From: Protonemura montana
Taxonomy: Eukaryota > Arthropoda > Insecta > Plecoptera > Nemouridae
Direction of reading: 5' to 3'
Assembly: GCA_947568835.1 (NCBI GenBank)
Contig: OX387611.1
Location: 12,872,350 to 12,936,349, forward strand
DNA: 64,000 bases
The position numbers and the translations under genes are program-made. This document shows positions 14,891 through 44,650 of the stretch, piece by piece. The notes under the pieces were generated by a model. It saw only the letters and a list, made by a program, of their open reading frames with translations, did no database searches and was not told the DNA's origin. Position 1 is the stretch's first letter. The number at the start of each line of letters is the position of its first letter.

Positions 14891-14941
14891 TGATATCTGT
14901 TACGAAAAGGCGACGTGAATTTGGACAGCCGTCCGTCGCGT

Positions 14942-15703: not shown

Positions 15704-15717
15704 GTCGGGGTCACCAA

Positions 15718-15915
15718 TGTAACGTAGTACACACGAGTCGTGAACAGTTTATGTTTATTTACAAGTGTACAATATTACTTTAATATCTAATATATGAAAA
15801 GATCAGACGACAAGTCTATCCTAGAGAGTCCGAGAACCGAGTGAGTCTCTAAAACAGTTGCCCCGCTCTCTTTCTTCTCATCCACCCTGCCTGGTGGATT
15901 GTCAGAGTCAGAGTC
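15718..15915 (-). repeat. Gypsy LTR (5' copy in element orientation)
   Basis: Partner of 12383-12580, with about two differences in 198 bp. Just inside it, in element orientation, lies the TGGTGACCCCGACGTG primer-site-like sequence. Confidence 0.85.
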
Positions 15916-15924
15916 GCCACAGCT

Positions 15925-16113
15925 GTAACATGGTGCCACGCCTGTTAGCTGGAGTTTGCGCCAGGTTGGATGCCCGTAGTGGAAGAAGCAGTCGTGGATT
16001 TCTTCTGCCGGAGAAGCTACCGTCAGGGAATTGCGAAATGCCCCATGAGAGTCCCAGACAATCCTGGCAAACTCGGTTCTATGATCGCTAGCTACTTGCT
16101 TTTTCCTGCTCAT
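15925..16113 (-). pseudogene. MULE-type transposase fragment, copy 1
   Basis: The minus-strand frame contains SPAEEIHDCFFHYGHPTWRK followed by QLTGVAP. It matches the block of Mutator-like transposases in which a GCxFH(F/Y)xQxxWRK segment follows the catalytic core. Upstream residues (RTEFARIVWDSHGAF) are present but weakly conserved. The fragment is cut at 15925, where the gypsy LTR begins. Its fuller relative is at 36510-36881. Confidence 0.6.
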
Positions 16114-16208
16114 AGAAGCTGGATAACGACTGAAAACGCTTGAAGTTGCACTGAAGTCGTCTCCTGCAATTCATGTATCTTTTATTTCTTATCATTTACC
16201 GTCCAGTC

Positions 16209-16275
16209 TCGGTGGCTGATTGGAAAAGTTGCTTCTCTCTGACTCACTCCAGACTCGAATCCTGTACACTCCGCT
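16209..16275 (+). repeat. tRNA-like (Ser/Leu type) SINE-head fragment
   Basis: TGGCTGATTGG fits the RNA polymerase III A-box consensus TRGYNNANNGG, and ACTCGAATCC, 36 nt further on, resembles the B box with two changes. Spacing and order fit a tRNA-derived SINE head. No full cloverleaf can be drawn. The same sequence recurs at 36961-37027 within duplicated block 1. Confidence 0.45.
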
Positions 16276-16311
16276 CTACGTTAGCAAAAATTAGCAATAG
16301 ATTTTGCATCA

Positions 16312-16509
16312 ATGCGAGAAGAATTGCAGCACGCTGCTTGCGATAGTGTTATGCACCGCGATATCGTAGCAGCGTTTTTGCCAAATATTCATGTGATAGT
16401 ACCATTCAAACCACTCCTGCCGATGAAAGTCCGCCGTCTTTGCAACGATGGATATCTGACGGAACAGTTGCTACAAGGCACTGCAAAGTCGCGGCAGCCT
16501 AGAAACTAG
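16312..16509 (+). CDS. 65-codon frame, unrecognised, kept in two copies
   Basis: The frame starts MREELQHAACDSVMHRDI and ends with a stop. The copy at 37065-37262 has the same length with only a few amino-acid changes. I do not recognise the product. Because the whole surrounding kilobase is duplicated at similar identity, preservation of the frame is weak evidence for coding. Confidence 0.2.
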   Translation: MREELQHAACDSVMHRDIVAAFLPNIHVIVPFKPLLPMKVRRLCNDGYLTEQLLQGTAKSRQPRN

Positions 16510-16539
16510 TATCTTTTGTCGCGGCGCTGTGAACGGTAG

Positions 16540-16578
16540 GGTTCGCTTCGCTGATGGTGCTTGAGAAGCGAAGCGACC
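16540..16578. repeat. 13-bp imperfect hairpin
   Basis: GGTTCGCTTCGCT (16540-16552) pairs with AAGCGAAGCGACC (16566-16578) with one mismatch. It lies immediately before the 100-bp module. It is present also in the 37.3-kb copy. The 38.8-kb copy begins inside it, with only the right arm. Confidence 0.75.
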
Positions 16579-16580
16579 AG

Positions 16581-16680
16581 CGGCACGGCCCGTTGGCACA
16601 ATGCACGGACATGTTTCTAGGTGGCGTGGTCTATGAAAGCCAGCGACTCGCTGCAGCTAGGCTCGGTCTCTCCGATTCTC
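16581..16680. repeat. 100-bp dispersed module, copy 1
   Basis: Begins CGGCACGGCCCGTTGGCAC and ends CGGTCTCTCCGATTCTC. Related copies are at 20078-20176, 37334-37434, 38855-38955 and 42636-42735, with a partial one at 45204-45258, all in the same orientation. The family is unknown to me. Confidence 0.85.
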
Positions 16681-16926
16681 CCAAATGGTAATCATCAGCC
16701 TGTGCCAAGGCTTTGGTTCAACCCCTCGCTGCCACGACATTTAAGTTTTGTTTTATGTCTAATGCGTCGTCTTATTTTGGCTGCAAATGATTTATTTTTA
16801 AGCTCGTCAGGTTTTTAAATCGTCATTTCACTGGGTTATTTTACACGAGAACGGTTGTGCTTGCGCACACTCTTAGTTTCCCGCGTTGTCCTGTGGCAGT
16901 CGCTCCTTCTTCATCGACAATGTATC

Positions 16927-17795
16927 ATGGCGGACGGTGAGAATCAGCGCGGCAGATTCAGTCTGGCCGTCAGGATACTGCAACGCATGAGGAAGCCGAG
17001 CTACAAGGAACTCTCCCCCGACGAACGAGACCTTGTCGACAACGTCACGCTCACAAAGCTAGATGTTATCCTGGCAATCCGTTTGGATTATTATGGATCG
17101 AACTATCATTCAAGTATTCAACTATTCAACTATCATGAATAGCTTTCCTCTTGTCCGTGGGTGTATCGACTGCACTCACGTGAAAATCCAATCTCTAGGT
17201 AATAATTCCCAAAAACTACCTACTTACATTCTATACTTTCCTGTCATATTACCAACCTGGTTCCTTTATCTTCCCATATACTTCAGGAGGAGATAATGCT
17301 GAAGACTTCAGAAATAGGAAAGGTTTCTTGTCACTGAACGTACAAACTGTTAGCGATGCACAGTTGCGCATATTAGATATAGTTACAAGGTGGCCAGGAT
17401 CAGCACACGATCAGACCGTTTTCAACAACTCTGTCCTTCGAGCCCGCCTTGAAACAGGGGAGTTTGGAAATGGTTTGATCCTGGGTGATTCTGGCTACAC
17501 CGTAAAACCGTATCTATTAACGCCTCTGCGTAATCCCAACCTCCCCGAAGAGCTATTGTACAATGAGAGCCAAATTCGAACACGCAGTACCGTAGAGCGG
17601 CAATATGGGACATGGAAACGTCGCTTCCCTGTGCTGTCTCTGGGGATGAGACTTAAAAATCTAGCCAACATTCAGGCGGTAATCGTGGCCTGTGCTGTCC
17701 TCCACAATCTGGCCATTGATCAGCATGAAGACGAGCCACCCCATGACCCCGAGTTGCCGCACCTTGATTTGGAGAGGGATCAAATGCTGTGCTAA
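16927..17795 (+). pseudogene. PIF/Harbinger-type transposase (DDE_Tnp_4 family), N-terminally reduced
   Basis: Three catalytic blocks of Harbinger transposases are visible. SFPLVRGCIDCTHVKI near 17140-17190 carries the first Asp. WPGSAHDQTVFNNS at about 17394 and ILGDSGYTVKPYLLTP at about 17480 form the second block. RSTVERQYGTWKRRFPVL near 17586 carries the Glu. A short intron (17199-17286) joins the first block to the rest in phase, restoring GGDNAEDFRNRKGF, which is typical of the family. The N-terminal region (MADGENQRGRFSLAVRILQR...) does not resemble a normal Harbinger N-terminus, and a frame change is needed near 17100, so the gene is probably defective. A Myb-like partner lies convergently 72 bp downstream, as in complete Harbinger elements. 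Confidence 0.8.
17199..17286 (+). other. Intron in the Harbinger transposase
   Basis: Starts GTAATA after ...CTCTAG and ends CTTCAG before GAGGAGATAATG. The 88-bp removal keeps frame and completes the family's conserved stretch around the first Asp. Confidence 0.7.
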
Positions 17796-18150: not shown

Positions 18151-18324
18151 CTGTGAAAAGAAAGGACATAGGGGAGTAGGCTAGAACTAGGTCTTTCACT
18201 TTTAATTTAAGGCCTAGCCTACATTGGTTTTTGTATTGAGGATTAAAATCTGTCCTGGACTGAAATATTTTTTTTAAATATTGATGTTAAAAAAATGAAG
18301 TACATGAACTACACTTATTTTGTA

Positions 18325-18690
18325 TTTACATTTTCTTTTGCCTTTCCATTTAAAAAATCTGTACTTGAATAAAAACAGTTTTCAATAAAATATGCCTTCA
18401 GGAAGTCTTTAAAATTAGTCTTACTTTTCAATTCTTTTAAATCTTTAGGCAAGCAATTAAAAAATTTGTTTCCTGCATAGCTTGGTCTTTTTAAAATAAC
18501 TTAAGATGGTGGCTTTCTTCCCTCAGATGATCTCTATTTCTAGTATTATAATTCCTTTTTGTTTCCACCTCAATTTTGGACCATTCTAAGACATATATAA
18601 TTGTACAGTACATGTATAAAGAAGGCAACGTCATCATTTTGAAATATTTCAACAGAGGCTTTGTCGTATCTTTATAAAAAATCTCCGCGC
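18325..18690 (-). mobile_element. LINE end, copy A
   Basis: Minus-strand sequence nearly identical to the LINE C-terminus at 40890-41250 (blocks KPLFKYFKMM, MYCTIIYVL, GNKFFNCLPKDFKELK). At least one shift breaks the frame here. It has the same 5' junction as the 40.9-kb copy, so both come from one insertion duplicated with its flank. Confidence 0.8.
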
Positions 18691-19129
18691 GTGCCTGGCT
18701 CTCGCACCTCGGCCAGGTTCTTCTTGCTCTGCTCTCACAATCCTGGGCAGAACATTTGTTTAGTTCTTCTTTTAGCTTCTAGGAAGCTTCATGAAACTTG
18801 TTATTTCCGTTCTACTTGGGGCCTAACATTGCTATGTCACATGCACCGTTGTTTTCCCTCTCTTTGTGCATAAAAGATATAAAGCTCACAAGCAGCTGCC
18901 AATCGAGCCGCTATTAATATCGTGTGTTGACTTGACCGATATTTTCCCGCTGTAAAAGTTGGAGCCACATATCACAGTTCGCTATCACAGAGAGCCGCTT
19001 AGCAGATCCGTTCGAGCTGCTTCCGCAGGGCCGTGAGGTTCTCTTAGATAGCTTTCAAAGGATACGGTGAGTGCGATTTACTCGATTGCCTCCTGGTTGT
19101 CCATCTTGAAGACAGCCGGACGTGGTATG

Positions 19130-19190
19130 GCACCGACCTGGATTCAAACCCGTGATCACCTGGTTGTTGATTGGTAACCAAGTCTTGGTC
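19130..19190 (-). repeat. Possible pol III B-box (tRNA-like)
   Basis: On the minus strand GGGTTTGAATCCAGG contains a B-box-like GGTTTGAATCC. No convincing A box is found. Present also at about 41690-41750 in the other copy of block 2. Confidence 0.2.
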
Positions 19191-20077
19191 GTCGCCTTCA
19201 CGAGCTCTTATCAGAGAAATGAGTTTGATGGTCGCCTTGGCGTTTGAATCTCCTCTACCAGGGAATTCTTTTCTTGAGCATCAAGTACTTGTGTAATGGC
19301 AAGCGAATAATCTGCCCGAGTCTGTGCGGAAGTAATCCAAGCCATTGCTGCTTCTCTAGCGGTCGCCATCAAAATTATTTGTGGCTCTTCATGTTCCTTG
19401 CTGGATTGCTTAGAGGCTACCTGTGTATTTAACTTACAGCTAGTACCTGTTCAGTGCCGTAGGACTCATGAATCGAGGCGTTGATACAGCAGGCTTCCTC
19501 TTTCTCTTTTCCACACCCTCTTTCTGACGCTTTGGTCAATGCCAGTCTCTGTTAAGTTGTGTCATTTTTTTAAATACTTGTACTGGCATTTATCGTTCTA
19601 AGAAGCAGGCCTTTTTCATGAAGCTATGACAATAAAAATGAAAATTGATAAGACATTAAAGTACACTATTGTACAAACGTTATTATTATTGCTCCTTGAC
19701 ATCAATTACCAATTCATCAATCATTCTTTCTCCAACGCTAGAGGCTTTTTGTTTTTGTTTTCGCTAATCGTCCTCCAATTGTTTAAAGGCGATTTCTGCG
19801 TTGCTCTTCTTATTGCTACAGCGTAAGCAACTTCAAGAAAGTTTTTTGGATTTCTTAGAAATTTTTCCATACAATCTATCGTCATTTTCTTGTCAGTATT
19901 TTTCTAATGCTGCTTGGCTCCTTTTTGGTTAGGGCAGAGTTTGACAAACGGGAGTGAAAATAACTTGCCATTGTACTGCAATTGACCAGTTTTGGATTTC
20001 ATCAAATGTTTCCTCTGCTAAAACTGTACGTGTTCATTGAATCTTCAGAAATAAGTTGTACCCAACCAAGTACCTAG

Positions 20078-20176
20078 CGGCACGGCCCGTTGGCACTATG
20101 TGCGGACATGTTTCTAGGTGGCGTGGTCTATGAAAGCCAGCGACTCGCTGCAGCCGAGCTCAGTCTCTCCGATTCT
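20078..20176. repeat. 100-bp dispersed module, copy 2
   Basis: Same module as 16581-16680, with ACTATGTGCGGACATG and CAGCCGAGCTCAG variants that are shared only with the 42636 copy. Confidence 0.85.
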
Positions 20177-22110
20177 CTAAACTATTGATTATAGACCGTT
20201 GCCATGGCGTCGGTTGTTAGGCTACGTTTGGGATATTACTCGATGCCAAGACTGGTTCGTCAAGTCTAAATTCACTTCAAATTACGGACACTCTTCTTTT
20301 TTCGCTCGGTCGGCCGGCCGACTTGGCAGGAGCGCGGACACTTTACTCTGCTTGCGGTGGAACAATAGCGCAACGCGGTACGATCGGCGTTCATTGAGGT
20401 AGCATCGTCCTGACGTTGAACATCACGCTCTCAACTTTCGTTGACGCTATTTGCCTAACATTCCTGTGCCATGCAGACGATGGTTCAATATATATTTCGT
20501 ACTTTACCGATGTTCATTTATCTAGTTAAATTGAAGAAAAAAATCACTTAGCCTGTCTGATAGAAGAACTGCCACCTGGGACTTATCTTTGCTTCGCCGA
20601 ATCGTTTTCTTTTTGATAAGTGACATCGGCTTTCGCCATTTGTTGGCTCTGCCTTACATTCCAGTGCCATATTGATTTTGGTTCTGTGAACATGTAGCGC
20701 TCTGGAATTAGAGTTCGTTAATACGTCTTCTTTTCATTCCGTAGTGCGCCATTATTAGTTAATCGATTCTTTGTTTGGATTCTTTGTGTCGCGGATCGTG
20801 TCGAGGTTGCTTGAGATGGACTGGAATAGTTTCGGAACACGCTGCCTGATCGCGCCACTGGCAAAAGTTCCCACCGAAAACCACACGATTGAAACAACCT
20901 TGTTTCAGTGATTGTTTTGATTTGCTTCTGGAAAAGATTTTCCGATATTATTGCTGTACAATTTTTTTTGTACTAACAGTAAAAACCAGCTTTTCTGCTC
21001 GGTTGTTAACATTATTTTAATTTTGTAATTTTGAAGTCGTTTTATATCACCGATCTTTAGAAATCCTTCGTGTTTTTAAATACCTCTTTGGCCATTAAGT
21101 CTAGAGACCGGTGGGCTCCTAGCAACCGAGTTTGTTTGGCTACTTTCGCCTTGGTGACACGCTAGTTTGGTGTAAGCTTTGAGATACGAGATTTCGACTG
21201 TTTCTAATTTCTGATTAAGTGCAATCTTCACTGCATCGTCCCACATTTTTTTAACCAGGCCTTCCTGACCATGGCAACTAAGAGACCGTTTTGCAATTAA
21301 CATTTGTCAACTTACTTTCCTGCTTCTTCTGGAATGAGTCGCCACCGGCTTGGGAGCTGGTTTCACAGAGCATCTTACAGCCATTGTGTAACGCTTCAAC
21401 GTTCACATCGTAGAGGCGTTGAACGGCAGTGAGCAGTCATTCTAGCAAAGCAGAGTATGGAGTCATTTCATGTTTCTGAACGAGTGGAACGCATCGGTTG
21501 TGAATCAGATTTCAGTAAAATATTAACTTTTCCCAAATATTTTTGAAATGCTTCTTTGGATTTGTATTCCAGATTAGTTACAAATAACATTGGAAACGTC
21601 AGAGTTCCAGAAGATATTTATAATTCGTTCATAAGGAGTAGACAGAAATATGTTTTAATTTTATTCGTTGTTTATCGATCAACAATGAAGGCAAGTCTAC
21701 AAGTGTTGATGTAATAAAATTAGAATAATTTGTACATGAAACAAGAACGATTAAAAACATGACTATATACAAACGTACGCTCAAGTTGAGACGTAACATG
21801 CAACGAGATATTACAGTGGGTAATTAATATAATAACAAGTTTTCATGGGTAGCTGTCTGGTCATGGTCTTTAAGTTGTTGGTCTTGTTGGCGCATGTAAA
21901 GTGTGCGCCGGTAAATTTTTAAAATTTCTAATTTCGCGTCCGTGGCGGCGGAGACGGCAGAGAGGTCGGGCGCATCACGTCACTTTCAACGCTCTTGCTG
22001 GATACTTTAAAGAAAACAAATCAATTAGTATTTTTTTATTACTCAAACACGGCTTGCCCACATTTACGCCAGGAAGTAAGATGCCCATAGGTACAGATGT
22101 GCATGTATGT

Positions 22111-23266
22111 ATCATGGCGGACGGTGAGATTCAGCGCGGCAGATTCAGTCTGGCCGTCAGGATGCTGCAACGCATGAGTGATCAATTGTACCATTTCAAG
22201 TGTGCGGGAGGAAATGCAAAGGTTTGTGGCGAAGAAAACAGCGAAATTTGGATCTGTTCAGAATGCTTGGGTGTATGGGTGTAGAGTGGGTGTTCGAATG
22301 GGTGTAGAGTCTCAATGCAACTGTAAAGGTTGGGTTTTCGGACCTCATACTCCTCGCAATCGACGAAATCTTCTAAATCTTTAATAAGACATTTGAAGAC
22401 TGCCGCGTCCCAATCTATGGGAAATTCGTCCCAAGAAATTTAACAGTGACGCTTCTGGCCTCATGTGCGGTCAGCCAGATTCAATAAATGGCCCGCCTGT
22501 AAAAGCGCTTAGCCCGACACCTAGGAGCGTGCTAGCCCGTGCAGTTCTCTAAGATGGCAGTTCCTCGACAACAACTTGTTGTCGACTATTCGTTTTGTTT
22601 TCTTGCTCTTTTTGCATATGCTATTTGCAATAACTCTGGAGAAATTTTCTTTTGTGGCCTGTGCCGCCGTCATCTTGCTATGGCACGTATTCAAAGTAAT
22701 GAAAACACGATTTATACATGATCTCACACCTAAGTACATATGTAGAAGGTGTATGACTCAGGAAATCTCTTTGGCACATTTTTATATGCGTATTTGCCGC
22801 ATGCTGTTTCCCAGGCTCTATGATTTGGTAATATTTCCACCAGCGCGACATGGACGTCTTATCTTCTGTTAATTTACTGCGGCAACACGAGAAATGGTGG
22901 CGGATTATTATTCATGCTTCCAGACGCCATAAAGTTGGCCCTGATTTGCTTCCCCCAAAGCATTGCCCCGACTGGCAAGTCTCAAATCACGTGACTGGGT
23001 GAAAGATAGTTAAACCACTCATTTAATATCTCACATTGAAATATTAGCTCTCATATCCGAGCTATAACAGAAATATATTCTGGTTCTTTTTTGGTCGAGA
23101 AGATTTAGCAAAATACTTCTAGTTTTGCCAGGATACAGTTTAGTCCTACTTTTTTGCTGGGTAACCGATCATGTGGACATTCGGGTAAATAAACTGGCTG
23201 ATCGAAGACTCCTGTAGTTCATTGCAGCTGGTGGTGTTTAACATTGTAGACAGAACTTCAACGACT
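22111..23266. repeat. Duplicated block 3, copy A
   Basis: Nearly identical to 37678-38836. It begins ATCATGGCGGACGG, the same leader that begins the Harbinger frame at 16927. After CATGAG it follows TGATCAATTGTACC instead of the transposase sequence. A perfect 19-nt palindrome-like CGACAACAACTTGTTGTCG lies near 22567. A 98-codon frame (22576-22872) is partly shared with the other copy, but I do not recognise it. Confidence 0.85.
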
Positions 23267-26200
23267 AAACTTCATTAGTTTATTTGCCGATATCACCTGC
23301 CACTTCTTTCATAGGTGATTTTTGATAAAAATACGTTGGTACATACGTGTGGTTATTACTTTCTAACAAAAAGACTAAGCCGAGGCCCGTCAATGTGCTG
23401 TATACGAGGACGCCCAACTTCACTGCTATTTAGTGCATGGGGATGAATATTCTCTGGCTTGTAGTTTTGGATTATCACACCATTTTCCATCCACCCGTCT
23501 TAATGGACGACGTTAAAGGTGTGTACTTGAGAAGCGGAAAGTTTACACCGGTGTCTTAGCAGGGTGCATGCTGTCAGTAATAAGCAAACATACCACTGCA
23601 GGTATCAATTGATTCGAGGGTCGAGTCCCAGGGCATTGTGTGCCGTAACACCCAGGTGTCAGCTTCATTCCGTTCGGACAGGAGGTGGTCGTGAGGTAAT
23701 TTAACCTAGAGTTACGTAGAACGATAGGGATTTTGCCGACGTACAACTCGATGTGGGTCGACAGAAAACTATGAAGTTGGTCTAATTTCCATCGAGTGTC
23801 TTGATATGTCCTCAGCCTGGCACTGGTTGGCCCACTGAGATCTGGGTCTGTTGACCCATTCGTCGTTTTTTGTTGAGTCCATATTAGGTAGAAAACGACG
23901 TGGATTTTAGTTGAGAAAGAGAAATAGTCTAAGAATGTTTTGAAGAAAACAGTCCCTACATAATTAATACTCAACATGTCTTCAGGTCATTGATGAGAAT
24001 GCGGTCGGTTGACGGGCAAGTTCAGTTTTCGGCCGACGGGTTGTTATTTCTAGCAGGACGAAGGGCTTCAGTCGGTTGGCCGCTTTCGTTGGCGTTCGTG
24101 TGTTGCATTGAATAAGATGGCAGATCTTTAGGCCGTGCGTGCCAGGTATGCTGGTAGGAGTGGAGCCTTATTTTGGGCGTCGAGAAGTGTCTGCGTCTCA
24201 TGCCCTCGAGTTCTATAGTGGGCATCGTGGCTGACGGTTGTATGTTAGCTGAAAGAAGATGCCTCGGGCTTGTCCGGGTCCTGCCTGCTCTTCTCACGAC
24301 TGCCAAGCGTGTCTTTAAGGTGTGTCTGTGCTCACGAACTATCGTCCTCTGTTGCCTGTTCTTCTGTCAGTGTTTGGAGGCAGCGAGTCGCTCTCGAGCA
24401 TGTTGGAATGCCGGGTACCCCTGTAGCTTGCAACATCTGCTAGTGGTGAACCAGGCCCTTCTGCATTCGTGTGTTGCGTGGTCTTTCACGCATTTCATGC
24501 ACTAGTTTGGCAGCACAGAACTTTTGAGGTTTGCCCAAATCATTGGACTGGCTCATTTGGTATCTCTCCGTTGTTATTCCACTGTAGTACAGTTTTCTGA
24601 CGTGCCTGATATGGGTGGCCGTTTCCTTTGTCGCCATTTTCTTCCAATGAGTCTAGGCAAATCTCCAGATGTTACACATCATTTTTAGGTTTTATTTTTT
24701 TCCTACTGCCGGCGTCTTGTTAGTGCAGTCGTTTTTTTGTCTTCTTTTCTTGTTTTCTCCTGTCTTTTTGTCTACAGCCTAGTCCTCTTCAATCTTTTTT
24801 CTTTTATTTTCGTTTGTTCTTCTGTCACCCATGATGGCCCGCACCTCGTCGCAACCTCAGATTCGTTGTGTCGGCGTTGGCGCGGAGGATCGGGTTTGAC
24901 CCCGTTGTCTCTGGGCGGCTGTGGTGGCGTGACTGGTTACTGATAGTGCTTCTTTCTTTTATGCAGACCTTTCGTTCTATGAAAGGTACTTGCTTGGATC
25001 ATAGAAACTAGTGCCCTGGTCTCCGCACAGCCATTCGATCCTGTCATTCAACTTATCAATCGCGGAGTCATGCAGATTGTCGCGGTAAAATATTTTGCCT
25101 CGGCCCACCAAACTATTACTGCATCAATTCGGTCGTTTAGTTCCATAACTAGGTGAGTCGGAGACCGCTTTGCACCCACTTTCACGACAATGTCTTCGGG
25201 CACGCTTCGTTTTCCTCAGTGAGGTACATTTAATTGTTTAGTTCCTTCACCTGTATGTCTGTGCAGTTGGTGACTTTGCTCCCTTCGGCTATACAGAGTT
25301 CCAGGAAGGTTTAGCCGTCGATTCACTGCATTATTTATCATCAAAGTCTTAAGTATTTGTTGTTCCATTTCAATCCGCCAGCCGCTGTTCCCCGACTGGG
25401 TCACAGGAGTGCGTGTGGTGCAACCGTAGTGACCGCCGGTGGATGTAGAAGGCACGTGGTCCCGGCAATCCGCTGCTACCAGTCTGGAACTCCGTCTTTC
25501 GCTAACCGTCGCGAGATCTGCCGTACTGATTCATTTGCTGCTATGCCGCAGTCAAAAAGAAGTGCATCTTTGATGTAATCTTCGGGCACCGACGCGTCGA
25601 TGCAACGCGAGACTCGCTTCTGTAGTATGTTATCCATTTCAGTGAAGGTGTGGTAATCAATGCCCATGCATGGGCAGTTTCGTGGCTGCCCTTTAATCTA
25701 ATGCATCTTGAACGGCGAGTCCCGTTGACCGTTACGTTTATTTTCTGTAAGCACTGGTTGCAAACCAAGAGCGCCAACTGCTGTAGCCAGATCTCATGGC
25801 TTTTGATCTTGTCGGCTCGTTCCTTACCCTTTAAGCAATCTTTTCTTCGTTTAAGTTTGTTTATTCAAGCTTAGGAGTACAATACATTAATAATAATAGA
25901 ACAAGTCTGAACAAGTGTACGAATTCTTCTTGGCCTAAAAATTTGAAACAGGCTGACATGCTAACCTGGTTGTTTGTTCGCGTGCTTCATTTTCATGTGC
26001 TTGATCTCATCGGCACGCGCTGGCGATTTTCTTGCCATAATGAATCGGGGAGATAGTTCTCAGTCCTGTGATAGGCCGAGACGTACCATCAATCACTGAA
26101 TTGTTAATTCTTAGTAAAACGTTTCAGCAATTAAATGGCTTCGTCAAATTTTTTTTTTAATTAATACACGTATCTTTGACAGTCTTGGTCGAGAGTTAAC

Positions 26201-27239
26201 GCCATTGTTGGCGCACTGGAATTGGGAGGAAACCCAGCACGCTGTCGACAGACTTTGGAACTCGTTCGAGTCGTTAGAGCTGTAGCCCTGCTGGCGACTC
26301 AATGCTGTAACGATGGCAACAAGCCAGAGTCGGCCAACACAGCGTCGGGTCGGTGAGGGCGTTCCACATCCAAAACACGTGGAGTCTGAAATCTTGTGGC
26401 TCTTCGTCTGTTTACCTGCTGAGAAACAATGTTGTCCTTTTACTCTTTAAGTAATTCACAAAGCAAATGCAGGTAAAACCTTTTGAAATCACTGCCATGC
26501 AGTGTGTGGTTATACGAGTTGCACGTTTCAAAATGTCTTAACAAGCAACAGAATCGATCCGAAACTTTTAAATTGTGATAAAACAATGGCAAGTCTAAAT
26601 AAAACAGACCGTGCAAGAGAATTGTCCATGGGTTTCGATGCAGTGCAGGGTATCGTCGGTTGCTACTGACAACTAAGTGTGCAGTGCCAGGCCTTCAAGA
26701 GCCTCCACATTTCCGTCACAATTCTGCAGCTTGACCTACAGAACCTTTGCATCCTTCAAGACACTGACTGGCCAACAGAACCCGAGGATTCATTCCCAGG
26801 ATCACCTCACTTCTAGTACCACGTCTGACAGGTACCCACCCGGCCAGCTGGAGTGCAGATTCTTTCATTGGAATGAATTTCTGTCGTTCTTCTTCTGTCT
26901 TTAAAAGTTCGGCATTCATATTTTCTGTTGTGCCTAGTAAACAATAAATACATGTGCAATGCAAAGTTTTTTATAAGCGACAAAGTCATCCAAACCATAG
27001 CAAACATTGCCTAACAATTTTACTAAGCAAAAGCCAAGCAAAAATTAATTAGATAATGAATTGTGCATCTAGATTTCTTATCTGCCTTCCAATAGTTTCG
27101 TCGCGCTGGTTGGTCAGTAGCGATAAGGGTGGAGACAACTGGCACTAGTGGAGAGAAAACAATATCTACCATAACACAGACGCGGCCAGTTTGATAAACT
27201 CGGCTCTCGGCCAGGCAAGCGCACATTTTTTTTAACCGG
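23267..27239. other. No recognised gene (about 4 kb)
   Basis: Many short frames, none with a known motif. The most gene-like area is 25440-25870 on the minus strand, listed separately. A B-box-like GGGTCGAGTCCCAGG lies near 23618 without a matching A box. Confidence 0.5.
25476..25870 (-). pseudogene. Unrecognised possible coding remnant
   Basis: The minus strand reads KGKERADKIKSHEIWLQQ then LALLVCNQCLQKINVTVNG (with CNQC), and after one frame change CPCMGIDYHTFTEMDNIL and ANESVRQISRRLAKDGVPDW before a stop near 25476. Composition is protein-like over about 130 codons, but I know no family with these blocks. It may equally be chance. Confidence 0.2.
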
Positions 27240-27475
27240 GGCTTCCATCCCGCCACGGCTGCATGGCGATCGCTTCACACTACATCGCCTCTGCCTTGCA
27301 CTACCAAAGATTGTGCAGCCCGTTGCAAGCAACAGGAATCTCTGATGTGCGGACATGCAAGGATTCATGCAAGGATCAACAATGTCGTGGAGGTAGAATG
27401 CATTGTTCAGCTTTTCGGATGGTATAATGCTGTCATGCTTGGTTGTTATTTGGTTTGACAACATCTCGGCTGCTT
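27240..27475 (-). repeat. Inverted duplicate segment, copy 1
   Basis: Reverse complement of 47437-47660 at roughly nine in ten bases. Both copies are open in the same frame (TTKHDSIIP..., LNNAFYLHDIVDPCMNP, RFLLLATGCTIFG). Most base differences change the amino acid, which argues against selection on a protein. Family unknown. Confidence 0.75.
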
Positions 27476-27740
27476 TATGAGGGATCGGATCGCCGTGCTT
27501 CGACTTCATTTGTTTCAAGACGCTCGAGAGTCCGTGTGTGTGTTTTAACGCATTTTAAAACTGTTTATTGCGCGAGACTCGTTCTTGGTACTGGCGTCCG
27601 AGGCTTGCCAACAAGGCCATCCGCTGGAGGCGCTGCACTCGGAAGCTTCTCACTGCGTCGGCGCTCAGACTCGGAGGAAATTAATCGATCTCTTCTAAAG
27701 TTCTGCCTCAGTTGTGCGTAAAAAGTAAAAATTATTTTAA

Positions 27741-29452
27741 ATATAATTTGGCTGCAGTCAGCCAAGGGCTGGACCTCGAGATGGCGCTCATTCGAGCGTG
27801 GAGAGTGCTGCCGCCTGGTGGTCACCTGTATAAAGCTGTGTGGTGATATATAATTTGGCTGCAGTCAGCCAAGGGCTGGACCTCGAGATGGCGCTCATTC
27901 GAGCGTGGAGAGTGCTGCCGCCTGGTGGTCACCTGTATAAAGCTGTGTGGTGATATATAATTTGGCTGCAGTCAGCCAAGGGCTGGACCTCGAGATGGCG
28001 CTCATTCGAGCGTGGAGAGTGCTGCCGCCTGGTGGTCACCTGTATAAAGCTGTGTGGTGATATATAATTTGGCTGCAGTCAGCCAAGGGCTGGACCTCGA
28101 GATGGCGCTCATTCGAGCGTGGAGAGTGCTGCCGCCTGGTGGTCACCTGTATAAAGCTGTGTGGTGATATATAATTTGGCTGCAGTCAGCCAAGGGCTGG
28201 ACCTCGAGATGGCGCTCATTCGAGCGTGGAGAGTGCTGCCGCCTGGTGGTCACCTGTATAAAGCTGCGTGGTGATATATAATTTGGCTGCAGTCAGCCAA
28301 GGGCTGGACCTCGAGATGGCGCTCATTCGAGCGTGGAGAGTGCTGCCGCCTGGTGGTCACCTGTATAAAGCTGTGTGGTGATATATAATTTGGCTGCAGT
28401 CAGCCAAGGGCTGGACCTCGAGATGGCGCTCATTCGAGCGTGGAGAGTGCTGCCGCCTGGTGGTCACCTGTATAAAGCTGCGTGGTGATATATAATTTGG
28501 CTGCAGTCAGCCAAGGGCTGGACCTCGAGATGGCGCTCATTCGAGCGTGGAGAGTGCTGCCGCCTGGTGGTCACCTGTATAAAGCTGTGTGGTGATATAT
28601 AATTTGGCTGCAGTCAGCCAAGGGCTGGACCTCGAGATGGCGCTCATTCGAGCGTGGAGAGTGCTGCCGCCTGGTGGTCACCTGTATAAAGCTGCGTGGT
28701 GATATATAATTTGGCTGCAGTCAGCCAAGGGCTGGACCTCGAGATGGCGCTCATTCGAGCGTGGAGAGTGCTGCCGCCTGGTGGTCACCTGTATAAAGCT
28801 GTGTGGTGATATATAATTTGGCTGCAGTCAGCCAAGGGCTGGACCTCGAGATGGCGCTCATTCGAGCGTGGAGAGTGCTGCCGCCTGGTGGTCACCTGTA
28901 TAAAGCTGTGTGGTGATATATAATTTGGCTGCAGTCAGCCAAGGGCTGGACCTCGAGATGGCGCTCATTCGAGCGTGGAGAGTGCTGCCGCCTGGTGGTC
29001 ACCTGTATAAAGCTGTGTGGTGATATATAATTTGGCTGCAGTCAGCCAAGGGCTGGACCTCGAGATGGCGCTCATTCGAGCGTGGAGAGTGCTGCCGCCT
29101 GGTGGTCACCTGTATAAAGCTGTGTGGTGATATATAATTTGGCTGCAGTCAGCCAAGGGCTGGACCTCGAGATGGCGCTCATTCGAGCGTGGAGAGTGCT
29201 GCCGCCTGGTGGTCACCTGTATAAAGCTGTGTGGTGATATATAATTTGGCTGCAGTCAGCCAAGGGCTGGACCTCGAGATGGCGCTCATTCGAGCGTGGA
29301 GAGTGCTGCCGCCTGGTGGTCACCTGTATAAAGCTGTGTGGTGATATATAATTTGGCTGCAGTCAGCCAAGGGCTGGACCTCGAGATGGCGCTCATTCGA
29401 GCGTGGAGAGTGCTGCCGCCTGGTGGTCACCTGTATAAAGCTGCGTGGTGAT
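27741..29452. repeat. Highly uniform satellite: 16 x 107 bp
   Basis: Exactly 16 units of 107 bp (1,712 bp) starting ATATAATTTGGCTGCAGTC. By eye the only variation is T or C at unit position 99, with C in units 5, 7, 9 and 16. Each unit holds a plus-strand GGACCTCGAGATGGCGCTC (positions 31-49) and a minus-strand TGACCACCAGGCGGCAGCA (positions 66-84). Both resemble the vertebrate CTCF consensus core CCASYAGRKGGCRS, at 12 and 13 of 14 positions. TATAAAG lies at unit positions 89-95. Small inverted repeats are GGCTG/CAGCC, CGCTC/GAGCG and GGTG/CACC. No frame crosses the array sensibly. Confidence 0.95.
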
Positions 29453-30218
29453 CGGTCCTCGGTTTTGTCTGTCCAAGTCGCTCGAGTGGGAATTGTCTGG
29501 TCGCTCTCGGCGGTGTTGCCAAGTTCATGCGGTTCATTTTGTTTGGTTGGCATCCGAGACATTGTGATATTGTTGGCCGTGAGTACAAACAAATGCACTG
29601 AGTTCTAATTACTTGGCACTTTTATCGAACTGCTTTCAACTGTTTCTAGCGAAGCATGAATATTGTTTTCTTTCTGTCCCATGCCTCGTTTTTTAATACC
29701 TTGGTAAATATCATCCAGTGATATTCAATGTACGTCTTAAGTTCAGCGACCCACGAATGCCTTCTGTGCTCGAAGGGTTAAAACGTAGTCAATGTTTGTT
29801 ATTCAATTGCTGAAACGTTTTGTCAAATTGCTTTGAATTATTCTTGCGACTTTCCGCGAAAACAATATCGGTGGGTCATCAAACTGGCTGTGAGACATTC
29901 ATAGTTTCTGATGTTTTTTTGCCCCGGCACTTGGCTCTTCTCGTGTAATCTCTGATTGTCCTGACACGGCTGCCTGGAATTACTATGCTATGGCGTTATG
30001 CATGGGTACCTTGACAGGATGGAATCTCCCAAATATCATATATCTTCTATCTCTTACCATGCCTTCCACCCCTTGAAGATTTGTTTGCATATGTTTATTC
30101 TGTCATGAAGTATTATCTTGTAAATATCGCATTCCGTTCTGCTCAATTTACCTTAGAACTTGAAACCAGCTCAAGTCTAGCAAATATTGTACTTATTTTG
30201 TCCGCTAGTATTGCAAGA
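29453..30218. other. No recognisable feature
   Basis: Unique sequence. Nothing supported. Confidence 0.5.
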
Positions 30219-30476
30219 TTAACTGAAAGGAGAACAAGGTGTTGATTCACTTAAAATTATTAAATTACACGGAACGTTTAATTTCAAATGTAAAACCATC
30301 GTACGTCTAAATGAATTCAATCTCTGGCACGGGTTCGAGAGGGCAGTGAGATCGGATCGGTAGTCAATTGTTTCAAACGCCACGAGTTTGTCTTCATATT
30401 CAGGCTGCTTCTTTGGGTCGCACTTCATTGTTGTGAACAGAACGGTCTTGCCGAACTTTGACACAATGTTCGACAT
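30219..30476 (-). pseudogene. Possible Pif1/Helitron helicase C-terminal remnant
   Basis: The minus-strand frame of 85 codons contains RLNSFRRTMVLHLKLNVPCN. This resembles the block LNSLxPSGxPPHxLxLKVGxPxxLLRN near the end of Helitron Pif1-like helicases. The preceding residues (KLVAFETIDYRSD) sit where those proteins have a sFDsid-like stretch. The match is weak and partial. It lies on the same strand as, and in the right order for, the helicase fragment at 35623-36330, but is separated by 5 kb. Confidence 0.3.
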
Positions 30477-30564
30477 TTTGTAATCACAGCATTACTTCAT
30501 ATTATGATGAATATTTTGAATATTAACAGTGCAATGTGAAAGCTTTACATACAAATATACAACC

Positions 30565-35622: not shown

Positions 35623-36330
35623 CTATACACGTGCTATCCATTGTGCGTGCATTTCTAGCACCCGATTAAAGCGTGCTATACTAGAAAAGTACCGAGGCTG
35701 TATTTCAGAGATTTCTGCAATTTGGGGGAATGATATGAAACGATCGTGCAGCGATGCAACAGCCACTAGACGAACTGTTCCTCGCCCTCGTTGGCACGCA
35801 TGTTCGCGAGCAGTTAGAGCGTGCGTAAAAGCGGCCAGAGGGCGCAACGTTTGAGCCACTGCTCGGTGATGGTGGCGCGATTGCCGTTGCAAGCACTGCC
35901 GGAAGTCCCCGCTAATTAACACAACCTTGCCACCCATTATGTCACACACCGTGCGGTGGATGGCGTTCAGCGCCATCGACGGTGCCATGGGTGCTTCGTC
36001 CAAGATAATAGCCTTGGCCGTTCTCAATGCACCGCCTTCAGCGGAATTTAGCTAGTACTGTTTTCCACGATGGGCAGAGGTAGCCGAAATCAACAGTGGC
36101 AAGTCCTCCCACCTATCAACAGTGTTGCCGCGATGCTCGGATCACCTCGGGCTCACAACACTGATCAGGGTGGCGTAGAGGAAAATCTTTCCACTGCCCC
36201 CTAGACCGTCCAGATAGCAACATCACTGCTCAGCCTCTGGGTTGTCGACAGCTGACACGACTGCGTCAAGTGCTTCTCGCTGACGTCTGCTAAGGAGTGT
36301 CACATTTCTCTCAGCTTCAGCCATTTCGGC
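35623..36330 (-). pseudogene. Helitron Pif1-like helicase fragment
   Basis: Read on the minus strand in the helicase order: RQREALDAVVSAVD near 36300, then Walker A YLDGLGGSGKIFLYATLIS (about 36220-36160). Walker B follows as AKAIILDEAPMAPSMALNAI with GGKVVLISGDFRQCL (36027-35895), then LWPLLRTL and LLANMRANEGEEQF (about 35850-35770). These are motifs Ia to III and onward of the Helitron SF1 helicase. The blocks lie in at least two frames, and stops interrupt the last part, so the gene is dead. The Rep/HUH nuclease half was not seen upstream. The next sequence upstream is MULE. Confidence 0.85.
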
Positions 36331-36509: not shown

Positions 36510-36881
36510 AAAGCCGACAAAAGTTGCTTGGCAAAAGGTTCGGTCTGCTTCTGCTTTGTGATTGTTGATTTAATACCTCCAGATCTTGCACAGCTTCGAC
36601 AATTTTGTCGACTGGTAGGAGAGGCAAAGCGATGACCTTTTTCACAAAATGTCTGGCATCTACAACATTGGCATTGGCAACAACATATTGCTGTAATATG
36701 GTGCCACGCCTGTTAGCTGGCGTTTGCGCCAGGTTGGATGCCCGTAGTGGAAGAAGCAGTCGTGGATTTCTTCTGCCGGAGAAGCTACCGTCAGGGAATT
36801 GCGAAATGCCCCTTGAGAGTCGCAGAAAATCCTGGCAAACTCGGTTCTATGATCGCTAGCTTCTTGCTTTTTCCTGATCAT
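36510..36881 (-). pseudogene. MULE-type transposase fragment, copy 2
   Basis: The minus strand reads SPAEEIHDCFFHYGHPTWRK and QLTGVAPYYSN, then after one frame change near 36690 VDARHFVKKVIALPLLPVDK and IVEAVQDLEVLN, with a stop near 36510. The series FFHY..xxWRK, then Y, then R.xVKKxxALPxLP follows the C-terminal half of Mutator-like transposases. The catalytic core upstream is not recognisable. The sequence shares 36690-36881 with copy 1 at 15935-16113; copy 1 lacks the rest. Confidence 0.65.
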
Positions 36882-36960
36882 AGAAGCTGGATAACGACTG
36901 AAAACGCTTCAAGTTGCACTGAAGTCATATCTTTTATTTCTTATCATTTACCGTCACAGT

Positions 36961-37027
36961 CTCGGTGGCTGATTGGAAAAGTTGCTTCTCTCTGACTCAC
37001 TCCAGACTCGAATCCTGTACACTCCGC
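36961..37027 (+). repeat. tRNA-like fragment, second copy
   Basis: Duplicate of 16209-16275 with the same A-box-like TGGCTGATTGG and B-box-like ACTCGAATCC. Confidence 0.45.
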
Positions 37028-37333
37028 TCTACGTTAGCAAAAATTAGCATTAGATTTTGCATCAATGCGAGAAGAATTGCAGCACGTTGCTTGGGATAGT
37101 GTTGTGCACCGTGATATCGTAGCAGCGTTTTTGCCAAATATTTATGTGATAGTACCATTCAAACCACTCCTGCCGATGAAAGTCCGCCGTCTTTGCAACG
37201 ATGGATATCTGACGGAACAGTTGCTACAAGGCACTGCAAAGTCGCGGCAGCCTAGAAACTAACATCTTTTGTCGCGGCGCTGTGAACGGTAGGGTTCGCT
37301 TCGCTGATGGTGCTTGAGAAGCGAAGCGACCAG

Positions 37334-37434
37334 CGGCACGGCCCGTTGGCACAATGCACGGACATGTTTCTAGGTGGCGTGGTCTATGAAAGCCAGCGAC
37401 TCGCTGCAGCTAGGCTCGGTCTCTCCGATTCTCT
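37334..37434. repeat. 100-bp dispersed module, copy 3
   Basis: Same module and same preceding hairpin as at 16540-16680. Confidence 0.85.
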
Positions 37435-37677
37435 CAAATGGTAATCATCAGCCTGTGCCAAGGCTTTGGTTCAACCCCTCGCTGCCACGACATTTAAGTT
37501 TTGTTTTATGTCTAATGCGTCGTCTTATTTTGGCTGCAAATGATATATTTTTAAGCTCGTCAGGTTTTCAAATCGTAATTTCACTGGGTTATTTTATACG
37601 AGAACGGTTGCGCTTGCGCAAACTCTTAGTTTCCCGCGTTGTCCTGTGGCAGTCGCTCCTTCTTCATCGACAATGTA

Positions 37678-38836
37678 TCATGGCGGACGGTGAGATTCAG
37701 CGCGGCAGATTCAGTCTGGCCGTCAGGATTCTGCAACGCATGAGTGATCAATTGTACCATTTCAAGTGTGCGGGAGGAAATGCAAAGGTTTATGGCGAAG
37801 AAAACAGCGAAATTTGGATCTGTTCAGAATGCTTTGGTGTATGGGTGTAGAGTGGGTGTTCGAATGGGTGTAGAGTCTCAATGCAACTGTAAAGGTTGGG
37901 TTTTCGGACCTCATACTCCTCGCAATCGACGAAATCTTCTAAATCTTTAATAAGACATTTGAAGACTGCCGCGTCCCAATCTATGGGAAATTCGTCCCAA
38001 GAAATTTAACAATGACGCTTCTGGCCTCATGTGCGGTCAGCCAGATTCAATAAATGGCCCGCCTGTAAAAGCGCTTAGCCCGACACCTAGGAGCTTGCTA
38101 GCCCGTGGAGTTCTCTAAGATGGCAGTTCCTCGACAACAACTTGTTGTCGACTATTCGTTTTGTTGTCTTGCTCTTATTGCATACATATGCTATTTGCAA
38201 TAACTCTGGAGAAATTTTCTTTTGTGGCCTGTGCCGCCGTCATCTTGCTATGGCACGTATTCAAAGTAATGAAAACACGATTTATACATGATCTCACACC
38301 TAAGTACATATGTAGAAGGTGTATGACTCAGGAAATCTCTTTGGCACATTTTTATATGCGTATTTGCCGCATGCTGTTTCCCAGGCTCTATGATTTGGTA
38401 ATATTTCCACCAGCGCGACATGGACGTCTTATCTTCTGTTAATTTCCTGTGGCAACACGAGAAATGGTGGCGGATTATTATTCATGCTTCAAGACGCCAT
38501 AAAGTTGGCCCTGATTTGCTTCCCCCAAAGCATTGCCCCGACTGGCAAGTCTCAAATCACGTGACTGGGTGAAAGATAGTTAAACCACTCATTTAATATC
38601 ACACATTGAAATATTAGCTCTCATATCCAAGCTATAACAGAAATATATTCTGGTTCTTTTTTGGTCGAGAAGATTTAGCAAAATACTTCTAGTTTTGCCA
38701 GGATACAGTTTAGTCCTACTTTTTTGCTGGGTAACCGATCATGTGGACATTCGGGTAAATAAACTGGCTAATCGAAAACTCCTTTAGTTCATTGCAGCTG
38801 GTGGTGTTTAACATTGTAGACAGAACTTCAACGACT
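37678..38836. repeat. Duplicated block 3, copy B
   Basis: Counterpart of 22111-23266. It begins at the ATCATGGCGGACGG leader, takes the TGATCAATTG path after CATGAG, and stops at ACGACT, where a second partial block 1 begins. Confidence 0.9.
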
Positions 38837-40647: not shown

Positions 40648-41250
40648 TAAATAAATAAATAAATAAATTCTTTATTTGTCATTAGATTCTATACATAGAA
40701 TATGGACAATTGTCAACTTATTACTACACTTATTTTGTGATGTCAACATTGTGTGTCATTGTGTTTTAGTATAGTACTTAGTTTTAATTCTTAAAAATAG
40801 TCTGTACGTTCTGCTGCATAGGTATACCTACAGTATGAGAACTTTTTGACTTAAATAAAAAATAAATAAATAAATAAAAATATTAACATTTTATTTTGCC
40901 TTTCTCTTTAAAAAATCTGTACTTGAATAAAAACAGTTTTCAATAAAATATGCCTTCAGGAAGCCTTTAAAATTAGTCTTACTTTTCAATTCTTTAAAAT
41001 CTTTAGGCAAGCAATTAAAAAATTTGTTTCCTGCATAGCTTGGTCTTTTTTTAAACAACTGAAGATGGTGGCTTTCTTCCCTCAGATGATCTCTATTTCT
41101 AGTATTATAATTCCTTTTTGTTTCCACCTCAATTTTAGACCATTCTAAGACATATATAATTGTACAGTACATGTATAAAGAAGACAACGTCATCATTTTA
41201 AAATATTTGAACAGAGGCTTTGTCGTATCTTTATAAAAAAAATCTCCGCG
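40648..41250 (-). mobile_element. LINE end, copy B, with TTTA tail
   Basis: A single minus-strand frame of 125 codons (41268-40891) carries CGDFF-like FFYKDTTKPLFKYFKMM, then LYMYCTIIYVL and KFFNCLPKDFKELKSKTNFK. This is a LINE RT-protein C-terminus. The 3' UTR continues to 40668 and ends in AAAT repeats (40648-40667), with another AAAT run at 40859-40879. It is more complete at its 3' end than copy A. The first residues (MREPGTRG) lie in flanking sequence beyond the truncation. Confidence 0.85.
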
Positions 41251-44200
41251 CGTGCCTGGCTCTCGCATCTCGGCCAGGTTCTTCTTGCTCTGCTCTCACA
41301 GTCTTGGGCAGAACATTTGTTTAATTCTTCTTTTAGCTTCTAGGAAGCTTCATGAAACTTGTTATTTCCGTTCTACTTGGGGCCTAACATTGTTATGTCA
41401 CATGCACCGTTGTTTTCCCTCTCTTTGTGTATAAAAGATATAAAGCTCACAAGCAGCTGTCAATCGAGCCGCTATTAATATCGTGTGTTGACTTGACCGA
41501 TATTTTCCCGCTGTAAAAGTTGGAGCCACATATCACAGTTCGCTATCACAGAGAGCCGCTTAGCAGATCCGTTCGAGCTGCTTCCGCAGGGCCGTGAGGG
41601 TCTCTTAGATAGCTTTCAAAGGATACGGTGAGTGCGATTTACTCGATTGCCTCCTGGTTGTCCATCTTGAAGACGGCCGGACGTGGTATGGCACCGACCT
41701 GGATTCAAACCCGTGATCACCTGGTTGTTGATTGGCAACCAAGTCTTGGTCGTCGCCTTCACGAGCTCTTATCAGAGAAATGAGTTTGATGGTCGCCTTG
41801 GCGTTTGAATCTCCTCTACCAGGGAATTCTTTTCTTGAGCATCAAGTACTTGTGTAATGGCAAGCGAATAATCTGCCCGAGTCTGTGCGGAAGTAATCCA
41901 AGCCATTGCTGCTTCTCTAGCGGTCGCCATCAAAATTATTTGTGGCTCTTCATGTTCCTTGCTGGATTGCATAGAGGATACCTGTGTATTTAACTTACAG
42001 CTAGTACCTGTTCAGTGCCGTAGGACTCATGAATCGAGGCGTTGATACAGCAGGCTTCCTCTTTCTCTTTTCCACACCCTCTTTCTGACGCTTTGGTCAA
42101 TGCCAGTCTCTGTTAAGTTGTGTCATTTTTTTAAATACTTGCACTGGCATTCATCGTTCTAAGTAGCAGGCCTTTTTCATGAAGCTATGACAATAAAAAT
42201 AAAAATTGATAAGACATTAAAGTACACTATTGTACAAACGTTATTATTGCTCCTTAACATCAATTACCAATTCATCAATCATTCTTTCTCCAACGCTCGA
42301 GGCTTTTTGTTTTTGTTTTCGCTAATCGTCCTCCAATTGTTTAAAGGCGATTTCTGCGTTGCTCTTCTTATTGCTACAGCGTAAGAAACTTCAATAAAGT
42401 TTTTTGGATTTCTTAGAAATTTTTCCATACAATCTATCGTCATTTTCTTGTCAGTATTTTCCTAATGCTGCTTGGCTCCTTTTTGGTTAGGGCAGAGTTT
42501 GACAAACGGGAGTGAAAATAACTTGCCATTGTACTGCAATTGACCAGTTTTGGATTTCATCAAATGTTTCCTCTGTTAAAACTGTACATGTTCATTGAAT
42601 CTTCAGAAATAAGTTGTACCCAACCAAGTACCTAGCGGCACGGCCCGTTGGCACTATGTGCGGACATGTTTCTAGGTGGCATGGTCTATGAAAGCCAGCG
42701 ACTCGCTGCAGCCGAGCTCAGTCTCTCCGATTCTCTCAACTAGTCAACATAGACCGTTGCCATGGCGTCGGTTGTTAGGCTACGCTTGGGATATTACTCG
42801 ATGCCAAGACTGGTTCGTCAAGTCTAAATTCACTTCAAATTACGGACACTCTTCTTTTTTCGCTCGGTCGGCCGGCCGACTTGGCAGGAGCGCGGACACT
42901 TTACTCTGCTTGCGGTGGAACAATAGCGCAACGCGGTACGATCGGCGTTCATTGAGGTAGCATCGTCCTGACGTTGAACATCACGCTCTCAACTTTCGTT
43001 GACGCTATTTGCCTAACATTCCTGTGCCATGCAGACGATGGTTCAATATATATTTCGTACTTTACCGGTGTTCATTTATCTAGTTAATTTGAAGAAAAAA
43101 ATCACCTAGCCTGTCTGATAGAAGAACTGCCACCTGGGACTTATCTTTGCTTCGCCGAATCGTTTTCTTTTTGATAAGTGACATCGGCTTTCGCCATTTG
43201 TTGGCTCTGCCTTACATTCCAGTGCCATATTGATTTTGGTTCTGTGAACATGTAGCGCTCTGGAATTAGAGTTCGTTAATACGTCTTCTTTTTATTCCAT
43301 AGTGCGCCATTATTAGTTAATCGATTCTTTGTGTCGCGGATCGTGTCGAGGTTGCTTGAGATGGACTGGAATAGTTTCGGAACACGCTACCTGATCGCGC
43401 CACTGGCAAAAGTTCCCACCGAAAACCACACGATTGAAACAACCTTCTTTCAGTGATTGTTTTGATTTGCTTCTGGAAAAGATTTTCCGATATTATTGCT
43501 GTACAATTTTTTAACAGTAAAAACCAGCTTTTCTGCTCGGTTGTTAACATTATTTTAATTTTGTAATTTTGAAGTCGTTTTATTTCACCGATCTTTAGAA
43601 ATCCTTCATGTTTTTAAATACCTCTTTGGCCATTAAGTCTAGAGACCGGTGGGCTCCTAGCAACCGAGTTTGTTTGGCTACTTTCGCCTTGGTGACACGC
43701 TAGTTTGGTGTAAGCTTTGAGATACGAGATTTCGACTGTTTTTAATTTCTGATTAAGTGCAATCTTCACTGCACTGTCCCACATTTTTTTAACCAGGCCT
43801 TCCTGACCATGGCAACTAAGAGACCGTTTTGCAATTAACATTTGTCAACTTACTTTCCTGCTTCTTCTGGAATTAATCGCCACCGGCTTGGGAGCTGGTT
43901 TCACAGAGCATCTTACAGCCATTGTGTAACGCTTCAACGTTCACATCGTAGAGGCGTTGAACGGCAGTGAGCAGTCGTTGTAGCAAAGCAGAGTATGGAG
44001 TCATTTCATGTTTCTGAACGAGTGGAACGCATCGGTTGTGAATCAGATTTCAGTAAAATATTAACTTATTCCAAATATTTTTGAAATGCTTCTTTGGATT
44101 TGTATTCCAGATTAGTTACAAATAACATTGGAAACGTCAGAGTTCCAGAAGATATTTATAATTCGTTCATAAGGAGTAGACAGAAATATGTTTTAATTTT

Positions 44201-44650
44201 ATTTTTTGTTTATCGATCAACAATGAAGGCAAGTCTACAAGTGTTGATAAAATAAAATTAGAATAATTTGTACATGAAACAAGAACGATTAAAAACATGA
44301 CTATATACAAACGTACGCTCAAGTTGAGACGTAACATGCAACGAGATATAACAGTGGGTAATTAATATAATTACAAGTTTTCTGTCTGGTCTGTCTGGTC
44401 ATGGTCTTTAAGTTGTTGGTCTTGTTGGCGCATGCAAAGTGTGCGCCGGTAAATTTTTAAAATTTCGAATTTCGCGTCCGTGGCGGCGGAGACGGCAGAG
44501 AGGTCGGGTGCATCACGTCGCTTTCAAAGCTCTTGCTGGATACTTTAAAGAAAACAAATCAATTAGTATTTTTTTATTACTCAAACACGGCTTGCACACA
44601 TTTACGCCAGGAAGTAAGATGCCCACATAGGTACAGATGTGCATGTATGT
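40882..44650. repeat. Duplicated block 2, copy B
   Basis: Counterpart of 18325-22110, ending at the same GCATGTATGT but followed here by unique sequence (AATTGACTTACC). It has small indels relative to copy A, for example near 43330 and 44385. No gene is supported beyond the LINE end. Confidence 0.9.
42636..42735. repeat. 100-bp dispersed module, copy 5
   Basis: Counterpart of the 20078 copy within block 2. Confidence 0.85.

Follow-up and report, generated by a model that had tools for sequence, protein, structure and literature searches.

The 64-kb window, that is, the whole stretch of DNA that was analysed, carries a tandem array of sixteen 107-bp units, each holding two CTCF-like sites that face each other. 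In our judgement, this pair remains improbable by chance even when hundreds of motif families and the 14 tandem-repeat places in the window are taken into account; a single site would not. We see about an even chance that the array is a CTCF cluster capable of being bound, derived by amplification of a single-copy segment with a facing CTCF-site pair. The features of the array are listed below, with coordinates in the window.

27741..29452, no strand: tandem array of 16 units of 107 bp (Tandem Repeats Finder and unit-by-unit comparison)
27748..27765 in unit 1, no strand: inverted repeat TTGGCTG/CAGCCAA with a 4-nt loop, present in each unit
27771..27789 in unit 1, plus strand: site A, CTCF-like GGACCTCGAGATGGCGCTC, unit positions 31-49, 16 times, every 107 bp (matrix and core match)
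27806..27824 in unit 1, minus strand: site B, CTCF-like TGACCACCAGGCGGCAGCA, unit positions 66-84, 16 times, every 107 bp (matrix and core match)
27829..27834 in unit 1, plus strand: TATAAA, unit positions 89-94, one per unit
27839 in unit 1, plus strand: unit position 99, the single base that varies among units, being T in twelve of them and C in units 5, 7, 9 and 16 (unit-by-unit comparison)

Sixteen Near-Identical Units

Tandem Repeats Finder describes 27741-29452 as a repeat with a 107-bp period, 16.0 copies, 99% matches and 0% indels. The copies lie head to tail in an integer number, with a partial unit at neither end. The first-pass annotation had spoken of sixteen practically identical units, and the unit-by-unit comparison bears this out: 12 of the 16 are identical to the consensus, and the remaining four carry a single T-to-C change at position 99, which falls outside both site A and site B. 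On average, two units differ by 0.4 base per unit, or 0.37%. The presence of the C variant in units 5, 7, and 9 suggests that it spread, or that the array slipped, in two-unit steps.

Within the 64-kb window we found no further copies of the unit, the best matches reported being only 11-12 nt long. Exact patterns taken from it gave 0 matches in viral contigs (28 bases) and 0 in prokaryote genome contigs (33 bases), collections in which an animal repeat is not expected. The array has a CpG observed/expected ratio of 0.67, lower than that of its surroundings; the ratio for the window is 0.91, and GC content outside the array is about 42%. The 500 bp to the left of the array contain 32 CpG, where the 90th percentile of 500-bp windows is about 31, and the 500 bp to the right contain 25.

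Several other identities were considered for the repeat and rejected. As regards a ribozyme satellite or other structured RNA, no Rfam family reached its gathering score anywhere in the window, and none appeared at E <=5 in 27600-29600. The fold z-scores were only -0.53 for the plus strand, not better than shuffles (49 of 200 as good), and -1.81 for the minus strand, mildly better than shuffles (8 of 200 as good). No tRNA was found in a search run with the bacterial code setting. As for a protein-coding repeat, 107 is not divisible by three, so one frame followed across three units traverses all three frames, and on each strand this frame hits three stops. Among the listed frames of at least 90 aa, two enter the array ends (27565-27864 and 29320-29604, both on the minus strand) and none crosses the array. 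A transposon with inverted ends was also dismissed, as the best inverted match between the 1-kb flanks was equalled by 17 of 100 shuffles; the direct flank-to-flank match is 19 nt, equalled by 4 of 100 shuffles.

Position and Strength of the Two Sites

In all 16 units, site A matches the CTCF core CCASYAGRKGGCRS at 12 of 14 positions and site B at 13 of 14, and the two 19-mers are separated by a 16-nt gap with their 3' ends facing each other, exactly as had been noticed by eye. The array therefore holds 16 core matches at 12/14 and 16 at 13/14, while in the rest of the window (62,288 bp; 124,550 positions on both strands) there are seven at 12/14, two of which fall in a 46-bp array, and one at 13/14. 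Sites A and B face each other inside a unit and stand back to back between neighbouring units, so that centre-to-centre spacing along the array alternates between 35 and 72 bp. They are identical at only 10 of 19 positions, and so neither is an obvious inverted copy of the other. The 32 potential insulator-protein sites counted in the first-pass annotation reduce to two independent sites, each copied 16 times, the other 30 being copies.

Scores were obtained with the vertebrate CTCF matrix (JASPAR MA0139.1) and the fly CTCF matrix (MA0531.1), both entered by hand and not fetched from the database. Against a background of window composition, the vertebrate matrix gives 20.8 bits to site B (p 6.3e-8 per position) and 16.3 bits to site A (p 1.3e-6), for a maximum of 28.9; the unit's own GC-richer background lowers these scores to 17.8 and 13.3 bits, respectively. 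Where the core has K, site B carries a C, a base with only 12 of 911 counts in the hand-entered vertebrate matrix. With the fly matrix, whose 15-mer begins at unit position 34, site A reaches 17.3 of 23.5 bits (p 8.7e-7) and site B is rejected (-4.35 bits).

Elsewhere in the window, meaning the 64 kb minus the array, one vertebrate-matrix match exceeds site A and none exceeds site B. The strongest of these outside matches, CTGCCAGAAGAGGGCAGAA, lies at 9839-9857 on the minus strand and scores 19.1 bits. CTCF-like cores are also found on the minus strand of an array of 13 units of 46 bp (57002-57609), twelve times at 11/14 and twice at 12/14. Its best copy, at 57163, reaches 14.3 bits with the vertebrate matrix, and this array is unrelated to the 107-bp unit.

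An upstream CTCF motif was examined as extra support and dropped. In vertebrates this motif lies 5-6 bp from the CTCF core (PMC5498337), and PMC12885311 gives a spacing of 2-7 bp. In the 107-bp unit, CTGCAGTCAG (unit positions 12-21) agrees with the upstream motif CTGCAGTTCC at 7 of 10 positions, but it stands 9 bp ahead of the site A 19-mer and is thus out of register. At 2-7 bp ahead of the 19-mer, the best match to a CTGCAGTTCC- or CAGCTGTTCC-like motif is 4/10 for site A and 6/10 for site B. Excerpts of two papers describe the upstream motif of strong vertebrate insulator sites as common to lamprey too (PMC5504073) and as being without enrichment in flies (PMC12885311); given the latter, a missing upstream motif decides nothing for an invertebrate host.

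Significance of the Motif Pair

Array copies are not independent, and the chance test was therefore confined to one circular unit, with the unit's own composition as background. Using the vertebrate matrix, a second site at least as good as the weaker one was found in none of 20,000 dinucleotide-shuffled units, with none of 20,000 column-permuted matrices applied to the real unit, and in none of 3,110 overlapping segments of 107 bp taken from elsewhere in the window. Considered singly, the strongest site was equalled in 4 of the 20,000 shuffles, with 3 of the 20,000 permuted matrices, and in none of the 3,110 segments, and any single site at the weaker level occurred in 51, 49, and 7 of them, respectively. 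For the fly matrix, sites as good as the top one turned up in 30 of 20,000 shuffles, with 19 of 20,000 column permutations, and in 5 of 3,110 segments; the second site is unremarkable, being equalled in 7,832 of 20,000 shuffles.

The 14-letter consensus provides a test that is independent of the hand-entered matrices. A 13/14 match together with a separate 12/14 match to the core was obtained in 0 of 5,000 dinucleotide shuffles and with 1 of 5,000 permuted consensuses, and two core matches of at least 12/14 in 2 and 5 of 5,000, respectively. Among the 13 other tandem-repeat places in the window, the consensus units of four arrays have a best core match of 9-11/14. Examined copy by copy, the 41-bp array has one 11/14 core, and two other tested arrays, beside the 46-bp one, have none.

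The CTCF resemblance thus outlasts matrix scoring as well as the shuffle and permutation controls, and is statistically stronger than matching by eye could show.

Genomic Setting

The window looks like part of a transposon-rich animal genome. Ty3/gypsy-type polyprotein frames (reverse transcriptase and RNase H, with DUF7041 in the upstream frame) are found at 12966-15748 on the minus strand, a DDE_Tnp_4 transposase frame at 17199-17795 on the plus strand, and a PIF1-like helicase fragment at 35623-36051 on the minus strand; five of the ten window frames submitted to the domain search had no match. Arthropods often have gag-like frames of this DUF7041 kind. In the ten frames flanking the array, no Pfam domain was detected at the curated cut-off. 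Matches below the cut-off were to Helitron_like_N in the frame 30219-30491 (17.7 bits, cut-off 28.9) and to DUF282 in the frame 26144-26446 (18.1 bits, cut-off 22.8).

Similarities within the window were listed for matches of at least 40 bp at E <=1e-4, one per mirrored pair, omitting in-array matches and direct matches less than 400 bp apart. A 3.8-kb duplication (18323-22111 and 40881-44651) is 97% identical, and pieces are also common to 15922-16991 and 36690-37744 and to 22107-23266 and 37673-38836; the duplication and the linked pieces are likely young mobile elements. A perfect 181-bp inverted match (12581-12761 and 15570-15750) is found around the gypsy-type frames, with direct matches near it (12381-12580/15716-15915 and 12758-12980/15594-15817), an arrangement that suggests a rearranged element end. 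A 230-bp dispersed repeat, present on opposite strands at 27231-27460 and 47438-47667 with 95% identity, ends 280 bp left of the 107-bp array. Other tandem arrays, with units of 41, 91, and 148 bp, lie at 3402-4287, 4780-5547, and 60541-61419, and two arrays of near-palindromic CAAGATCTTG-type units (51654-51754 and 55578-55930) are similar to each other on both strands.

Possible Origin and Function

The integer copy number and the lack of a partial unit lead us to infer that the array was amplified from a once single-copy segment; before that, unit and flanks probably formed an uninterrupted sequence. In the reading put forward at the outset, this segment would already have borne the facing CTCF sites, 16 nt apart, and the TATAAA; tandem duplication, with recent expansion or homogenisation, would have turned it into 16 near-identical copies. 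Given a host CTCF with a vertebrate-like preference, the 1.7 kb would then become a closely packed, two-directional cluster of bound sites. With sites spaced at 35 and 72 bp, ordinary nucleosomes would not fit between occupied pairs, and the cluster would be expected to insulate strongly or to block cohesin arriving from either side; these effects on nucleosomes and cohesin are extrapolated from known CTCF behaviour. Because the fly matrix accepts only site A, binding of both sites is plausible only for a CTCF with a vertebrate-like preference, and a fly-like host CTCF would be expected to bind site A alone.

CTCF itself was present in 105 of the 110 species of a screen covering 100 insects and ten outgroups, according to an excerpt of PMC5094011. 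Clusters of CTCF sites can be functional: in a Sox2-locus screen, as told in PMC12885311, insulation required 2-4 tandem copies of a CTCF site. CTCF motifs are reported at domain boundaries in cephalopods (PMC12407938, in excerpt) and, according to PMC13317027, as enriched at the boundaries of sea urchin and sea star, less than in zebrafish. The same source reports no orientation pattern of CTCF motifs at these echinoderm boundaries and no loop-anchor enrichment, so the facing arrangement of sites A and B may mean nothing. We find it doubtful that, outside vertebrates, this 1.7-kb array of 32 sites forms a copy-number-tunable, two-directional boundary convergent with mammalian DXZ4 and with CTCF/BORIS-bound VNTRs.

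A neutral minisatellite is a possibility that we take seriously, while rating its chances at below even. A segment with one or two CTCF-like sites, whether in use or not, would have been copied by slippage or unequal exchange to no advantage; CTCF may bind the array, which would have no notable effect. Tandem expansion is common in this window, as shown by the 13 other tandem-repeat places (including those with units of 41, 91, 46, and 148 bp); near-identical units require recent expansion only, and the variants at units 5, 7, and 9 are suggestive of two-unit slippage. However, a comparable motif pair is present in 0 of the 4 other units tested, and the pair is improbable by chance, although this argues for an ancestral segment and not for selection on the array.

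Of less weight, and in our view improbable, is a promoter or enhancer array whose unit is a former promoter segment, with TATAAA and zinc-finger sites, and whose last copy would drive a transcript rightward. The first-pass annotation had noted a TATA-like box in every unit, and this holds insofar as TATAAA occurs once per unit, above background; judging by the window outside the array, about 0.10 occurrences would nonetheless be expected in 107 bp, and TATAWAWR, a stricter consensus, has no match in the unit. TATAAA would lend weak support to a promoter. By eye, a splice-donor-like GTGAGT is present at 29579-29584, 145 bp beyond the point where the last TATAAA begins, but no Pfam domain passes the curated cut-off in the ten flanking frames. 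Site A could be a target of YY1 or of some other zinc-finger protein, since ATGGCG is also part of the YY1 site; site B, compared by eye with the YY1 motif, is unlike it.

Very improbable, finally, is a fortuitous resemblance, which the numerous motif families and arrays open to comparison, the shuffles that reproduce one site at the stronger or the weaker level, and the strong vertebrate-matrix match at 9839 would favour insofar as they weaken single-site claims, but which two separate strong sites in one unit, never obtained with the shuffles or the permuted matrices, speak against.

If both sites bind CTCF, the amplified segment would let nature show how the strength of a boundary depends on the number of sites, their spacing, and their facing orientation. 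In an invertebrate host, this could be studied where orientation rules appear absent, as in flies and echinoderms (PMC13317027, in excerpt), and if copy number varies among individuals, the array would provide an allelic series at one locus.

Comparison with Known Tandem CTCF-Site Systems

The published systems compared here are described from excerpts of the papers cited. By title, no description of this array was found among the matches listed in the open-licence literature on CTCF tandem repeats or VNTRs and on 107-bp satellites. The string GAGATGGCGCTC was found in four papers, on unrelated subjects as judged by title and the start of the abstract.

The first-pass annotation had likened the array to CTCF-site macrosatellites in compact form. 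This is a comparison of function only, since macrosatellite units are mostly >2 kb (PMC3491370) and the unit here is 107 bp. DXZ4/Dxz4 resembles the array in its tandem organisation and in having a CTCF binding motif per unit (PMC3491370, PMC3218863), and the bipartite folding of the inactive X requires Dxz4 (PMC5899087). Its unit, however, measures about 3 kb in primates and 3.8-5.7 kb in mouse, and it has up to 100 units in primates with demonstrated CTCF binding, whereas the present array has 16 units and motifs only (PMC3491370). In the D4Z4 macrosatellite, the tandem unit acts as a CTCF-dependent insulator, but it is 3.3 kb long and its function was tested, as opposed to sites predicted from sequence in a 107-bp unit (PMC2639723).

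The tRNA VNTR at human 1q23.3 is a tandem array in which CTCF is bound in each unit, and beyond the tRNA genes only its 24-bp CTCF site is conserved to mouse (PMC4041453). Its 7.3-kb unit contains tRNA genes, in contrast to the array here, which has no tRNA or Rfam match. The subtelomeric 61-29-37 repeats of TERRA promoters similarly combine short tandem repeats near a promoter with a CTCF site, which in that case follows the 29-bp repeats at a distance of about 300 bp on their downstream side (PMC6600276). No telomere-like repeat is present among the tandem arrays that Tandem Repeats Finder lists in the window.

The human VNTRs co-bound by CTCF and BORIS are similar in that short tandem repeats build clustered CTCF sites; among the 171 ChIP-seq-validated repeats that make up the co-bound class, most are simple tandem repeats (PMC5007689). 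Like this class, the array is a head-to-tail repeat of short units with an above-chance core motif in each unit, as scored with a hand-entered matrix, and by unit size its nearest known kind would be these VNTRs and not the macrosatellites. In the dominant type of human VNTR, each unit has a short signature and the cluster forms across units (PMC5007689), whereas here each 107-bp unit holds two full-length facing sites, known from sequence where the human ones come with occupancy data. Tandem arrays of CTCF sites are thus already known in mammals, and what sets the present array apart is its pair of full, putative CTCF sites facing each other within every 107-bp unit.
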